In this document: positions 9,711-19,841 of the stretch, piece after piece | Layout of the letters: each line of letters begins with the position of its first letter | Numbering within the stretch: the first letter of the stretch is position 1 | NCBI GenBank assembly: GCA_021604505.1 | Contig: BQJC01000001.1 | Coordinates: 1,385,501-1,449,500, forward strand | Reading direction: 5' to 3' | Source of the DNA: Nitrospinaceae bacterium | GTDB taxonomy: Bacteria > Nitrospinota > Nitrospinia > Nitrospinales > VA-1 | DNA length: 64,000 bases | Position numbers and translations under genes: made by a program | The notes under the pieces: generated by a model | Databases searched by the model: none | Told to the model about the DNA's origin: nothing | Seen by the model: only the letters and a program-made list of their open reading frames with translations

Positions 9711-9739
9711 TTGACAGCCCCGAGGGACAAACGTATCCT
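9711..9739 (+). promoter_or_regulatory. Sigma70-type promoter for the MoxR gene
   Basis: TTGACA at 9711-9716 and TATCCT at 9734-9739 are separated by exactly 17 bp. The box lies about 40 bp upstream of the MoxR start. Found by eye; no transcription data. Confidence 0.5.
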
Positions 9740-9779
9740 GAACTACTGTAATGGATCAAAAATTCAAATTGATAATTCA

Positions 9780-10742
9780 ATGGAAAACTTTTTAGATAAA
9801 AAGAAAAACGCCCTTGAGACGGCAGTCGTCGGCGATGTCACGCTCAAAATGAGCCTTCCCGACGAAACGCAACCCGAATGGATCGGCCAGAACGAGGTTT
9901 TGAAGCAGATTCTCGCCTGCTGGCTGGTGGTCGGGGAAAAAGACTTCCCGCTTTCTCCGCGCATTGTGGGTATGCCGGGAATCGGGAAAACCACCCTGGC
10001 GATGGTCGCGGCTCTGAAGCGTGAACAGCCGTTATACATTTTTCAGTGCACCAGCGACACCCGTCCGGAGGATCTTCTGGTGACTCCGGTTCTGGCGGAA
10101 TCAGGAAAAATTTCCTACCACGCCTCGCCGCTGGTGAGCGCCATGATCACCGGAGGCATTTGTATTCTCGACGAAGGCAACCGCATGAACGAGAAAAGCT
10201 GGGCCTCGCTCGCGCCGCTTCTGGATCACCGCCGCTATGTGGAATCGATCATCGCCGGAATCCAGATTCACGCGCACCGGGAGTTCCGCGCCTGCGTCAC
10301 CATGAACCGCGACGAATCGACGTTTGAGATTCCCGACTACATCTTGTCCCGTCTACAGCCGACGCTCCCCCTGACGATGCCCAATCACCAGGACGAAATG
10401 GCGATTCTGCAATACCACCTGCCGTTCGTGGAAGACGACCTTTTGAAGATGACGGTCGATTTTCTGCAGCAGGCGCATCAACTGGATCTGGACTTTTCCC
10501 CACGCGATGGCATCCATATTTTGCAATACGCCGTCAAGCGTTTGAGCCAGGATAAAGACCATCCCCTGGCCAAGGATGCGATCTGGAAAGAAGCGATCAT
10601 CCGGGTTTTGGGCGAGGAGGCTCTGGATCTCGACGGACTGGCGTCCAAAAAGCGCCGGGCGCTGGGTTCCGATCAATTGCCGATGGGCCTTGGCGATTTC
10701 TTTTTCAATGAAGACAGCCCCCTGCACCCGGACAGCGACTAG
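9780..10742 (+). CDS. MoxR-family AAA+ ATPase
   Basis: The protein has 320 aa from the ATG at 9780. A longer frame would overlap the divergent dehydrogenase gene and read through the promoter, so I reject that start. Walker A is GMPGIGKT (64-71). Walker B is [12 protein letters not shown] with Asp131-Glu132, followed by the [15 protein letters not shown] segment typical of MoxR proteins. An SRLQP segment near residue 190 is the likely arginine finger. MoxR ATPases act as chaperones that remodel or mature partner proteins, usually encoded next to VWA-domain proteins. No VWA gene is present; the partner here appears to be the large protein at 10972. Confidence 0.85.
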
Positions 10743-10823
10743 CCAGCGTGACGCTGGACCAAATAGTAACGTTCGATGGGTTTCTTGCTGGCAGAACCCT
10801 GAATCATTGGGAAATCATTTGTT

Positions 10824-10934
10824 CGTCATTGCGAGCAAAGCGAAGGCGTAATATTTAACCTTAGCTCTCGTGCCCCGAAGGGGTAAATCCAGAAAATCTG
10901 GATCGCCGCGCCACTTTGTGGCTCGCGATGACGG
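10824..10934. repeat. Imperfect palindromic repeat element between the MoxR gene and its partner
   Basis: The left end CGTCATTGCGAGC (10824-10836) and the right end GCTCGCGATGACGG (10921-10934) are near-perfect inverted copies enclosing about 85 bp. This GTCATTGCGAGC element is familiar as a short dispersed non-coding repeat in many bacterial genomes. It occupies half of the gap between the two genes of the MoxR locus and may fold in the transcript. Confidence 0.6.
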
Positions 10935-10971
10935 ATTATGGAAAAATCTTCCCACCCGTCTGGGTTTGTAA

Positions 10972-12810
10972 ATGAATAACAAAAAAGACATCTTCACGAT
11001 CAGCGATAAAATCCGCGTCCTGCCCGTCGTGCACGGAAGCGGCAATTACACGACGCAGGTGAGAGAAGCCATTCTGTCCACAGGCGGCGACTGCCTGGCG
11101 GTGGCTCTGCCGCCGGAATTCCAATCGACCGTGGAGCAGGGCCTCAATCGCCTTCCCGCCGTCACCGTCAGTTGTCTGGAAGAAGCCGATGGCACTCGAA
11201 GCTACGTTCCCGTCGATCCCAGCCAGCCGGTCATCATGGGGTTGCGGATCGCGCGCCAGGAAGGAATGGCCACCGCGTTCATCGACTGGAGCACCGCATC
11301 CTTCGAGCCCCGGCAGATGCATTTTCCCGACACCTTCGCCCTGCGCGGAATGTCCATGGAAAAATTCAACGCCGCCCTTTTGCTTTCCCTGAAACGCCCG
11401 GAACCGGACAGTCAGCACGAAAAACGCGCCCGCTGGATGGGCTACCAGCTCCACCGTCTGGAGATGGACTATTCCCGGATCATCTTCATCTGCTCGGTTC
11501 TCGACTGGCCGTGGGTCAAGGAAGCCTATGACGAACGGCTCGAATACTCTCAACCCGAGATTGTCGATAGCTACCCACACCTTTACGGAGTGGATAAAAA
11601 CACGCTACTGTTCGCGTTGACCGAATTCCCTTACATCACCTACCTCTATGAAAAAAGACGGCAGGAATTGCGCTCCGACAAAAATGTACCGATCGACGGA
11701 GTGAAAGAGATCATTCTTAAGGCCCGCGAGCTTTTCTTGCAAAAGAAAAAGGTGCGCTACCACAACTTGACCACCCAGTCGTTTCAGGCGTATTTGCAAT
11801 ACGTGCGCAATTTGACCCTGATGGAATCGCGCTTGATGCCCGACCTGTACACCATGGTCACGGCGGCCAAGCAGATCGGCGGCGATCTGTTTGCCGTTTC
11901 GGTTCTGGACGCAGCGCGGGAATATCCCTTCAAAGAGGATGAGTCCCTCGATACTCTGGCGCTCGGAATCGATCAGGCGGTGTTCGATGAGGATCAAAAA
12001 ACGCCGGTGCGCATGAAGAACCGCCTGTCGGAAGTGATGTACGAATGGCGGACTCTCAATCTCAAACCGGAACCGGACATCAAAAAGCAGGAGAGCTGGA
12101 AATACCGCTGGAACCCGTACGGCCAGTGTTCCTGGCCGCCGGAAGATGAAAAAATCGAAAGCCTCAACACCCATGTCCGCGAACAGTCGAAACTGTTACT
12201 GAGCAACGACCTGGCCCGAACGGAGAAATTCACCTCATCCGTAAAAGACGGCATCGACATCCGCGACACCTTGCGAAACTGGCACACGGGAGACATCTAC
12301 GTTAAGGAAATTCCCCCATCGCGCGGGCAGGTGGAAATCGTCGTCTTTCTGTTCGATCCCGAACCCGATCCCATGCAGTACAGCTGGCGGCAGACCTGGT
12401 ACGCCGAGCACGACGACGAATCCACCCTGTGTTTTTTCGCCACCGAATACATGAACAACCTGGTCGGCCCTGGAATCGGCGAGTCCAACTACGGCGGTTG
12501 TATGATGATCTATCCCCCGCGCCCCATTCCCAATATCTGGGAAGACAAAAATATCAATCTGGCCGACACACTGGAGGAAAAATTACTGGAAGCGGCGTTT
12601 TATCATTCCCGGGAAAAGCACGTCACCGTCGTGGCCCCCTGCCCTCCCCGGCCCAGCTGGCGGCGGCTGGCGCGCCAGTATCATAAAAACCTGATCCACA
12701 TTCCCATGAAACGGTTTTCCAACCAGACCCTGGAACGCGTCCGGCGCTTTCACGTGCTGAACGGCAAGGAAATCCGCTCTTTCGCACAACGCTTCATTCA
12801 GGATATTTAG
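10972..12810 (+). CDS. Large TraB/DUF5682-like protein, partner of the MoxR ATPase
   Basis: The protein has 612 aa. The first ~190 residues look like the TraB/ChaN/DUF5682 group: a VLPVVHGSGNYTTQVREAI start, then a predicted strand-loop with LAVALPPE, and later KRARWMGYQLHRL followed by a hydrophobic strand IIFICSVLDW. In DUF5682 the latter strand normally ends in a His (GAWH-like), which I do not see here. The middle is helical. The C-terminal half (YRWNPYGQCSWPPEDE, then VEIVVFLFDPEPDPM and SNYGGCMMIYPP) matches nothing I know. DUF5682-like proteins are often encoded with MoxR ATPases and VWA proteins. It is soluble by appearance, and the start has only a weak ribosome site. Confidence 0.6.
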   Translation: MNNKKDIFTISDKIRVLPVVHGSGNYTTQVREAILSTGGDCLAVALPPEFQSTVEQGLNRLPAVTVSCLEEADGTRSYVPVDPSQPVIMGLRIARQEGMATAFIDWSTASFEPRQMHFPDTFALRGMSMEKFNAALLLSLKRPEPDSQHEKRARWMGYQLHRLEMDYSRIIFICSVLDWPWVKEAYDERLEYSQPEIVDSYPHLYGVDKNTLLFALTEFPYITYLYEKRRQELRSDKNVPIDGVKEIILKARELFLQKKKVRYHNLTTQSFQAYLQYVRNLTLMESRLMPDLYTMVTAAKQIGGDLFAVSVLDAAREYPFKEDESLDTLALGIDQAVFDEDQKTPVRMKNRLSEVMYEWRTLNLKPEPDIKKQESWKYRWNPYGQCSWPPEDEKIESLNTHVREQSKLLLSNDLARTEKFTSSVKDGIDIRDTLRNWHTGDIYVKEIPPSRGQVEIVVFLFDPEPDPMQYSWRQTWYAEHDDESTLCFFATEYMNNLVGPGIGESNYGGCMMIYPPRPIPNIWEDKNINLADTLEEKLLEAAFYHSREKHVTVVAPCPPRPSWRRLARQYHKNLIHIPMKRFSNQTLERVRRFHVLNGKEIRSFAQRFIQDI

Positions 12811-13588: not shown

Positions 13589-14233
13589 ATGAACTCAATA
13601 CGAAGAAATTTCATTTTTACCCTGAGTCTGACGGCATTATTTGTTTTTGTATTGCCCAACGCCATTGTGGCCGCGGAAAAGGAAATCACTCATGCGCTCA
13701 AGAGAACGATCAAACAGGTCGTCGAAATCGTCTATGACGATGATTTGAAACGGAACCCGGATACTCGTCGAGTGCTCCTTCAAAGAGCCATCAACCAACA
13801 GTTTAACTTTAATCAAATGGGCGCTCGCGCCCTGGCGGAAAACTGGAATGCCAGAAGCGCCAAAGAACGACGGGCGTTCATCCTGCGGTTCAGGAACCTT
13901 CTGGAGCGATCCTATGTTCAGAGAATAGAATCGTATGAAGGCGGCAAAATCCGTTTCACCGACGAAGTGGTTAAGGGAAAATACGCGATCGTTAAAACCA
14001 GGATCGAGATGAAACGAAAATCCATCGATTTCGATTACAAAATGATTCGGGAAAACGGCCAATGGAAGGTGTATGACATTCTGGACCAGGGAGTCAGCAT
14101 CATTCGCAATTACCGCCATCAGCTGGCTAGCACACTAAAGAATGAATCCTTCAGCGACCTATTGAAAAAAATGGATAAGTCGAAGGAGGGAGGGCATTCC
14201 GTTCAGGTGGCCTGGAGAACCGGTTCCTATTGA
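13589..14233 (+). CDS. MlaC/Ttg2D-type periplasmic phospholipid carrier (copy 1)
   Basis: The 214-aa protein has a signal peptide (FIFTLSLTALFVFVLPNAIVAA) and then the MlaC domain: KRTIKQVVEIV, FNQMGARALAENW, RFRNLLERSYVQRIESY, and the end WKVYDILDQGVSIIRNYR. MlaC ferries phospholipid between the outer-membrane MlaA complex and the inner-membrane MlaFEDB transporter. No mlaA, B, D, E or F is nearby, so it is an orphan copy. A GAGGTGATGAAATG start region fits well. A close paralogue sits 5 kb downstream at 19227 with the same start context. The C-terminal ~25 residues differ from the paralogue. Confidence 0.87.
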   Translation: MNSIRRNFIFTLSLTALFVFVLPNAIVAAEKEITHALKRTIKQVVEIVYDDDLKRNPDTRRVLLQRAINQQFNFNQMGARALAENWNARSAKERRAFILRFRNLLERSYVQRIESYEGGKIRFTDEVVKGKYAIVKTRIEMKRKSIDFDYKMIRENGQWKVYDILDQGVSIIRNYRHQLASTLKNESFSDLLKKMDKSKEGGHSVQVAWRTGSY

Positions 14234-15452: not shown

Positions 15453-16478
15453 ATGGCGAAAATCAATAAAATGTGTTTTGATAAAATTCTTCCTCAAGAA
15501 CTGGTTCGACCGCAACGCATGATGAGAATGGCCAACGGCCGTTTGCGTGCCATTGCTCCTAAAGGCAAAGAATGGGTTAACGGCTCCACGCTCAGAATAC
15601 GTTTCCTGAATGGCAATGCCGATCAAATAAAGATGGTTAAGGATATTGCTCCGGAATGGACCCGACATGCCAACCTGAAATTTGAATTCAGCGATGATCC
15701 ACAGGCGGAAATCCGAGTGACGTTCAATGAGAATGACGGCGCATGGTCTTACGTGGGAACCGACAACCTGGGAATTCCAACCCATGCCGCCACGCTCAAC
15801 CTGGGTTGGCAGGACCAGGGAGTCATTCTTCACGAGTTTGGCCATATGATTGGTCTAAGCCATGAACATCAGAGTCCTCTTGGTGGTATCGAATGGAATG
15901 AAGATGTCGTCATAAAAGACCTTTCGGGGCCACCGAATTTCTGGAACGAGACTCAGATCAGGCACAATGTGCTGAACAAATATAGCGTGGATCAAATCAA
16001 TGGCACTGAATTCGACGAGGAGTCGATCATGCTGTATGCATTCCCCAATGAATGGACCATTGGCGACTTGGAGACTCACGAAAATGAAAAGCTTTCGGCC
16101 CTTGACAAACAATTTATTAAAAGCGCCTCCATGTATCCTCCGATTGATGTTCCTAAACCGGTTGTCGAACTTCCGGTTGCGGAGTCAGTGAGAGGGGAAA
16201 TCAGTCAGGCAGGAGAAGAGGACTTATATCAATTTGTTGTCCGCAAGCCAGGAGTCCATACCATTCAAACCATGGGATCCATCGATGTGGTGATGAAACT
16301 TTTCGGTCCGGATAGTGAAACACGGCTTGTTGCGGAGGATGACGATGATGGCAGTGGGCGCAATTCCCTCATCACTGCAGACCTTGAGCGAGGGACCTAT
16401 TTTGCACAGGTTCGCCATTACAACGAAAGCCGGACGGGAAATTATCATATCCTGTGCACCGCTGAACCGGGAGCATAG
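15453..16478 (+). CDS. Metzincin zinc protease with C-terminal PPC domain
   Basis: The protein has 341 aa. The extended zinc signature HEFGHMIGLSH places ligands at His127, His131 and His137 with catalytic Glu128. A Met-turn candidate, SIMLYAF, sits near residue 191. This is the matrixin/astacin-type catalytic fold. Residues ~235-338 (VRGEISQAGEEDLYQFVV, then SLITADLERGTYFAQVRHYN) form a pre-peptidase C-terminal (PPC) beta-sandwich, typical of secreted proteases. No N-terminal signal peptide is visible, although relatives are generally exported. The start follows GAGGCGAG and is convincing. Export by another route, for example type I secretion, would be needed; no transporter is nearby. Confidence 0.85.
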   Translation: MAKINKMCFDKILPQELVRPQRMMRMANGRLRAIAPKGKEWVNGSTLRIRFLNGNADQIKMVKDIAPEWTRHANLKFEFSDDPQAEIRVTFNENDGAWSYVGTDNLGIPTHAATLNLGWQDQGVILHEFGHMIGLSHEHQSPLGGIEWNEDVVIKDLSGPPNFWNETQIRHNVLNKYSVDQINGTEFDEESIMLYAFPNEWTIGDLETHENEKLSALDKQFIKSASMYPPIDVPKPVVELPVAESVRGEISQAGEEDLYQFVVRKPGVHTIQTMGSIDVVMKLFGPDSETRLVAEDDDDGSGRNSLITADLERGTYFAQVRHYNESRTGNYHILCTAEPGA

Positions 16479-19226: not shown

Positions 19227-19841
19227 ATGAAAAGTGAGCGAAGCATATTAAATTTGATTCTGGCTACTGTGGCCCTTTTTGTGTTTTCAGCCCCGCAAGC
19301 GATCATGGCTGGTGAAACTCAGGTCACCAAAGATTTGAAACAAACGATCGATCAGGTCATTGAGATTGTCAATGACGAGAAGCTGAAACAGGATCCGAAA
19401 GCCCGGCGGGAACTTCTTCGCGACACCATTAACGAACGTTTCAATTACAATCAAATGGCCGTTCGGGCGCTTGCTGAAAACTGGAACCCCAGAACCCCCG
19501 AAGAGAGGAAAGAGTTCACCGAAATGTTCCAGAAGCTTTTGGAACGTTCTTACGCTAAAAAAATTGAAACCTTTGGCAGTGGAAAAGTGGACTACAAAGA
19601 TGAAGTGATTAAAGGCAAGTACGCGATGGTGAAGACCACCGTGGAACAACGAGGGAAATCCGTCAGCCTGGATTATAAATTGATTCAGGAAAATGGCGAG
19701 TGGAAAGTCTATGACTTTGTGGTCAAGGGAGTCAGTGTGATCCGTAATTACCGCAACCAGTTTTCGAAAACGCTCAAAAATCAATCCTTCAGCGAACTAA
19801 TGAAGAAAATGGAAGCCACTGAGGAAGAAAACACCATTTAA
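19227..19841 (+). CDS. MlaC/Ttg2D-type periplasmic phospholipid carrier (copy 2)
   Basis: The 204-aa protein has a signal peptide (ILATVALFVFSAPQAIMA) and the MlaC domain: KQTIDQVIEIV, FNYNQMAVRALAENW, MFQKLLERSYAKKIETF, WKVYDFVVKGVSVIRNYR. By eye more than half of its residues match the copy at 13589, and both starts share GAGGTGATG plus an AT-rich leader with AAAATTTAAGT-like sequence. It is probably a recent duplicate. As with copy 1, no other Mla component is nearby. Confidence 0.87.
   Translation: MKSERSILNLILATVALFVFSAPQAIMAGETQVTKDLKQTIDQVIEIVNDEKLKQDPKARRELLRDTINERFNYNQMAVRALAENWNPRTPEERKEFTEMFQKLLERSYAKKIETFGSGKVDYKDEVIKGKYAMVKTTVEQRGKSVSLDYKLIQENGEWKVYDFVVKGVSVIRNYRNQFSKTLKNQSFSELMKKMEATEEENTI

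Follow-up and report, generated by a model that had tools for sequence, protein, structure and literature searches.

Results

A MoxR-type ATPase paired with a large partner lacking a VWA domain

Nearly all understanding of MoxR ATPases has come by way of their VWA partners. Here we describe two genes, A and B, located in a 64,000-nt stretch of the genome of a Nitrospinaceae bacterium (assembly GCA_021604505.1, contig BQJC01000001.1, positions 1,385,501 to 1,449,500 of the forward strand; the whole of this stretch is referred to as the window), in which a MoxR-type AAA+ ATPase (A) is followed on the same strand by a large protein of no named family (B). We propose, with a probability that we put at about 60%, that A and B make up a dedicated MoxR-type remodelling machine of two components, whose co-factor is B instead of a VWA protein. 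An earlier reading of this DNA from its letters alone (the sequence-only reading) had described a MoxR ATPase with a co-oriented 612-aa partner and no VWA neighbour; both open reading frames (ORFs) were indeed found, and none of the ten neighbours between 5008 and 18640 that were scanned with Pfam contained a VWA domain.

A and B belong together, linked or not

We scored the presence of A and B at E 1e-30 or better in 60 genomes (our own and its relatives) and found B in 44 and A in 43, with both present in 43 and neither in 16; at the lone B without A, the B locus runs off the start of its contig. Twenty-five of the 30 relatives of good quality carried the pair, which makes it near-core in this order, and a genome of the same genus (G003, 92% complete) had neither gene. 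Among 246 Planctomycetota genomes, B was detected in 38 and A in 40, and all 38 genomes with B also had A. The two genes were adjacent in 23 of these 38 pairs and apart in 15, seven of which share a contig but lie hundreds of kb or more from each other (G097, G121, G142, G178, G253, G266, G310). The corresponding Fisher values (1e-42 for Planctomycetota, 1e-13 for the 60 genomes) ignore kinship and are not to be taken as probabilities. We also fetched the loci of the best 80 of 181 relatives found by a protein search with B, and A was present in 69 of them. Fourteen genomes were tested for A, with a strong A in 13; six of the 14 had a fetched B locus without A, and in five of these six A was encoded elsewhere. 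The co-occurrence on which the sequence-only reading depended thus extends to other genomes, including those in which A and B are unlinked.

The pair is also widely distributed. B was found in 28 of 198 Nitrospirota genomes and in 20 of 64 genomes of a group gathered around a Gemmatimonadetes-labelled record (G068), which includes genomes reached from Latescibacterota-labelled records, and on the Neochlamydia plasmid pS13 A and B are adjacent, without a VWA gene. Going by record labels, the pair occurs in at least six phyla (Nitrospinota, Nitrospirota, Latescibacterota, Gemmatimonadota, Planctomycetota and that of the Neochlamydia plasmid).

Signs of broken copies were seen in a few genomes. 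In G002 (L032 10088-10267), B is followed just downstream by a second, broken copy of its last ~60 codons, and in G004 such a copy lies on another contig than B (G004:C438); these copies are 58–73% identical and carry a stop. In the single-contig genome G005 (L050 / L093), the A and B matches are both incomplete and lie more than 1 Mb apart, reflecting either decay or sequencing error.

Absence of a linked VWA gene

Searching 168 A-B loci (1.91 Mb in all, with overlap and redundancy among them) with the YehP profile gave no matches, while a general VWA profile matched one protein, which lies in locus L120 ~2.7 kb beyond B and not adjacent to it; control loci were positive. Our own genome encodes five VWA_2 domains, none of them beside A-B, and three of the five adjoin another MoxR gene (C1:1544448); four MoxR-like genes were listed in this genome. 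No VWA_CoxE domain was found in it.

A is placed as a separate MoxR lineage

A matched Pfam AAA_5 with an E-value of 1.6e-17 and 64.3 bits (cut-off 22), and its ATPase motifs, Walker A and B, are intact; GMPGIGKTT and ILDEGNR vary little or not at all across the A alignments. We took ATG 9780 as its start, although the open frame extends upstream to 9549. By profile, the nearest known structures were midasin, a CbbQ/NirQ/NorQ-type protein, NorQ and CbbQ, with E-values of 2.8e-8 to 2.8e-5 for CbbQ and NorQ. A has the conserved C-terminal tail GLGDFFF..DSPLHPD, the consensus of which (GLGDFFF..D.LHPD) is retained in most rows of the switched group defined below and partly beyond it, and this tail could be a docking peptide.

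In a MoxR tree from which the APE0892, APE2220 and PA2707 subfamilies were left out, the 30 A rows formed one clade (100/99) and the 12 YehL rows another (100/100), both long-stemmed and with A outside YehL. On this tree, A appears as a separate lineage of the MoxR clade. The two clades were recovered as sisters, weakly (80/68) and with long branches, so that a common origin of the two MoxR-TIKI pairs is no more than possible.

B carries a predicted TIKI/TraB-fold domain at its N-terminus

B had no significant match in Pfam or NCBIfam, which agrees with the description of part of it as unrecognised in the sequence-only reading. A match to Ribonuclease_T2 (E 0.14) was weak and was set aside as chance, and when the profile of B was searched against PDB sequences, a single match came back, at E 0.6. 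An AlphaFold2 model of B, when built from a 64-row alignment of relatives, reached a predicted local distance difference test score (pLDDT) of 92.0 and a predicted template modelling score of 0.82; in the first model, built from 17 close relatives, the C-terminal half was poor (pLDDT 61). Residues 1-193 of the model matched a Tetrahymena complex IV subunit (VIA Z 9.7), ChaN (8.4), HopBA1 (7.1) and EreC (6.9), and the best rows (Z 9.7 to 5.9) came mostly from the TIKI/TraB/EreA/ChaN superfamily and shared its fold. Several of these rows fall below Z 8, the level where chance arrangements occur, and we read them beside the profile-profile result given below. In a viral library a TraB family protein ranked first (E 1.7e-4, probability 1.00). 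A Foldseek search of the PDB had no match that reached E 0.001.

Profile-profile comparison with hhalign aligned B 12-186 with the N-domain of DUF5682 at 97.1% (E 6e-11), and the two N-domains alone at 98.0% (E 2.3e-13), compared with 0.1–3.2% for 11 other domain pairings used as negative controls and 1.0% for A. Judging from the model and the profiles together, the N-terminal domain of B is a TIKI/TraB/EreA/ChaN-fold domain that is homologous to the N-domain of DUF5682. The Pfam DUF5682 model (PF18934) matched only 4 of 64 B members at E up to 1, the best at 0.0033, and had no match in our own genome; its best scorer among the B members reached 16.3 bits, short of the cut-off of 26, so that B is a relative of DUF5682 and not a member. 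The TraB/DUF5682-like N-terminus that had been suggested earlier was therefore borne out by profile comparison and fold matches, though not by the direct DUF5682 model.

The TIKI signature appears to have been exchanged once, in concert

DUF5682 proteins have invariant or near-invariant H11, E35, R175, E176, G199 and H202 (E. coli YehM numbering), which align with B residues 21, 45, 152, 153, 175 and 178. In the B of the window, H21 and R152 are kept, while A45, A153, S175 and D178 replace E, E, G and H. Across the alignment, 17 of 64 B sequences have E45, E153 and G175 together, 16 of them with H178 and one with L at this position (the unswitched group); the other 47, including that of the window, have none of E45, E153, G175 and H178, and position 178 is D in 46 of these and E in one (the switched group). 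H21 and R152 are present in both groups, and overall H21 is found in 59 of 64 sequences, R152 in 63 and C174 in 58. The Neochlamydia B, read by eye, has the unswitched residues.

The two groups were split by a single branch of the B tree (100/100), which points to one concerted exchange of the signature on the lineage of the window. In the A tree, with other MoxR rows as the outside reference, the rows belonging to the unswitched group branched first, which makes the switched state probably the derived one. The intact sequences beside their exchanged sister group offer a natural experiment, in which the same machine occurs with and without a putative hydrolase site.

According to the RRSP paper (PMC6254334), active TIKI enzymes use two His and two Glu residues (2His/2Glu) for catalysis, and a TIKI-fold toxin domain without this motif showed no such activity; this provides a precedent for the fold being used without that catalysis. 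In the window B, H21 is present, and A45 and D178 stand at the positions of the YehM Glu and second His, which correspond to the 2His/2Glu set by spacing and not by direct alignment.

The C-terminal part of B is the most conserved

Mean conservation of B was highest in its C-terminal part in both the switched and the unswitched groups. Among the 29 columns that are invariant in the 64 B sequences (one row of which ends near residue 525), 20 fall in residues 376-515, and six of these 20 are acidic (E391, D392, E396, D426, E479, E483). We found no known fold for B 320-612, a region that was modelled within full-length B and is barely covered by the PDB comparison, and this result is not evidence of a new fold. 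With hhalign, the C-terminal part scored 1.2% against that of DUF5682 and 0.2% against the VWA protein YehP, with no match to YehL. Between the two parts, residues 239-318 were considered as AAA lid helices, but the Z of 5-6 for this helical element is too weak and may reflect merely a common arrangement.

Table 1. Features of the A-B locus, in window coordinates.
Feature	Position	Strand	Basis or remark
Promoter-like site TTGACA - 17 nt - TATCCT, upstream of A	9711..9739	+	Consensus match, 10/12
Gene A: MoxR-type AAA+ ATPase, 320 aa	9780..10742	+	ORF listing, Pfam
Walker A of gene A, GMPGIGKTT	9969-9995	+	Alignment
A-B intergenic spacer, largely dispersed repeats, strongly self-complementary	10743..10971	+	Repeat matches, folding
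Gene B: 612-aa partner protein, no named family	10972..12810	+	ORF listing, Pfam/NCBIfam
Predicted TIKI/TraB/EreA/ChaN-fold domain with exchanged catalytic signature (B residues 10-195)	10999..11556	+	Model, profile comparison, alignment
Three-helix region (B residues 239-318)	11686..11925	+	Weak likeness to magnesium chelatase BchI and MCM lid helices
C-terminal part (B residues 320-612)	11929..12807	+	Most conserved part of B; fold not matched

Promoter-like site, intergenic spacer and neighbouring genes

The sequence-only reading had placed a promoter with a 17-bp spacer before the ATPase. Such a site is present, and both its hexamers and their spacing are retained amid diverged sequence in two of three aligned close relatives and missing in the third; as a consensus match alone, however, it is at chance level, since the scan found four promoter-like sites where 3.4 ± 1.7 were expected.

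The gap between A and B is 229 nt here, compared with a median of 12 nt over 58 loci; it looks wide, but the spacer consists largely of dispersed repeats. Two main stretches of it had 30 matches in our own genome, its folding z was -3.7, and in relatives the spacer is absent or different. One of its repeats has long inverted ends (CGTCATTGCGAGC..GCTCGCGATGACG) and is likely a small non-coding mobile element.

We mapped the context of 91 loci, for which ORFs were called mechanically, so that some are not genes. An NAD-dependent DNA ligase lies downstream of B in 15 of the 91, in Nitrospirota (one was checked by Pfam; the count takes cluster-9 proteins of more than 600 aa, the whole cluster of 18 including three shorter ones, at least one of another kind). 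In Nitrospinota, a GNAT acetyltransferase gene overlaps B or follows it by a few bases in 15 of the 91 (L035, L056 and others; one Pfam-checked). Neither gene adjoins B in the window, and the downstream genes differ in other loci. Gene context was considered as a clue to the client and gave no lead, as the downstream neighbours vary between lineages, and we gave up the idea of a link to nitrite oxidation, since the pair is found in Planctomycetota, Latescibacterota and Gemmatimonadota as well. Elsewhere in the window, we observed two similar MlaC-like proteins ~5 kb apart (13589-14233, identified by Pfam, and 19227-19841, by eye) and an astacin-like metalloprotease with a PPC domain (15453-16478; Pfam).

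Discussion

In the two-component machine that we propose, A would form a hexameric ring, and B would dock on or in this ring, most likely through its C-terminal part. The invariant acidic cluster of B could provide a metal-dependent grip on the client, as the metal ion-dependent adhesion site of VWA domains does elsewhere, while the N-domain with its TIKI fold, which here has probably ceased to be a hydrolase, may bind the client or a ligand, and ATP hydrolysis by A would act by way of B in remodelling a housekeeping client. Some observations weigh against this proposal. A strong A without B was found in two Planctomycetota genomes (G079:C151 and G224:C1), and two of the five VWA_2 domains of our own genome lie on a contig (C3) with none of the four MoxR-like genes, so that a VWA protein acting in trans is conceivable. 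The ring, the docking, the client and the direction of force are all drawn by analogy with NorQD and McrBC, as described in PMC9976466. More tentatively, A-B might represent an undescribed MoxR subfamily in which a new enzymatic or metal-gripping C-terminal domain (bearing the six acidic residues) replaces the VWA adaptor, and in which the TIKI N-domain turned from a hydrolase into a recognition module by a single concerted change whose place on the tree can be given.

We weighed this proposal against several others. The N-domain of B might still be an enzyme, an ATPase-regulated TIKI-type hydrolase or protease with a re-tooled active site (H21, R152, C174, D178). The near-invariance of the first three of these residues, the D178 of 46 of the 47 switched sequences and the E/E/G triad, mostly with H, of the 17 unswitched relatives all speak for this; yet the Glu (E35 of DUF5682) and the second His are gone in all 47, and the toxin domain without the motif was inactive in this respect, and we consider this explanation unlikely. 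A little less likely again is that A has a VWA partner whose gene lies at another locus, leaving B as a client or third component. According to PMC3893208, a VWA cofactor is generally found together with MoxR proteins, and our genome does have VWA genes away from A, but three of those domains already adjoin another MoxR gene, and the one distant match in the 168 loci is all that was linked to the pair.

We regard it as improbable that A-B is a YehL-YehM-YehP-YehQ system that lost its VWA and SWIM members. The order of a MoxR gene and then a TIKI-domain protein is the same, the N-domains are homologous, and A and YehL came out as weak sisters. Nevertheless, each of the two is monophyletic on a long stem, the middle and C-terminal parts of B have no match in DUF5682, and DUF5682 and B coexist in five genomes (G097, G144, G162, G205, G209), such that membership, when tested, seemed unlikely. 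The sequence-only reading had spoken of a minimal or variant MoxR system; of the two words, variant suits the pair better, in that its partner is a different protein and not a reduced YehM set. Just as improbable, in our estimation, is a conflict or anti-phage role. MoxR-vWA pairs are recurrent cores of such ternary systems, as stated in PMC7159879, and on the Neochlamydia plasmid an AbiEi-type antitoxin-domain gene and a recombinase lie no more than a few kb from A-B. The near-core presence in relatives makes a defence role unlikely, however; PADLOC matched neither A nor B of the window, and no recurrent effector gene was seen beside A-B in the mapped loci.

A pair that spans these phyla, is near-core in relatives and is retained even when its genes are far apart, with another partner fold, would mean, if our proposal is true, that the VWA domain is replaceable, and the pair would then tell us what a MoxR ring really needs from its partner.

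Comparison with known systems

Within the literature searched, we found no paper naming DUF5682 and, judging by their listing, none on such a MoxR-TraB pair. In McrB-McrC, as presented in PMC9976466, the pore of a MoxR-like AAA+ ring already holds a partner that is not a VWA protein, although we claim no sequence relation to McrC and saw no restriction context around A-B. The CGN MoxR-VWA pairs CbbQ/CbbO and NorQ/NorD resemble A-B in likely being a ring remodeller with one dedicated large partner, but B has no recognisable VWA domain, and A is separate from the CGN rows of the tree. Residues 1-193 of B are predicted to have the same fold as the TIKI/TraB/EreA/ChaN superfamily, from which B of the window lineage differs in its replaced Glu and second His and in being coupled to an AAA+ ATPase. 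Finally, DUF5682 loci, E. coli included, had a YehP-type VWA match in 17 of 17 cases and a YehL match in 16 of 17. Compared with this YehL-YehM-YehP-YehQ system (MoxR-DUF5682-VWA-SWIM), A-B has no linked VWA or SWIM gene, A falls outside the YehL clade, and B is unrelated to YehM in its middle and C-terminal parts and, in the window, has the catalytic signature exchanged; what the E. coli system and A-B have in common is a MoxR gene followed directly by that of a large protein with a TIKI/TraB-type N-domain.
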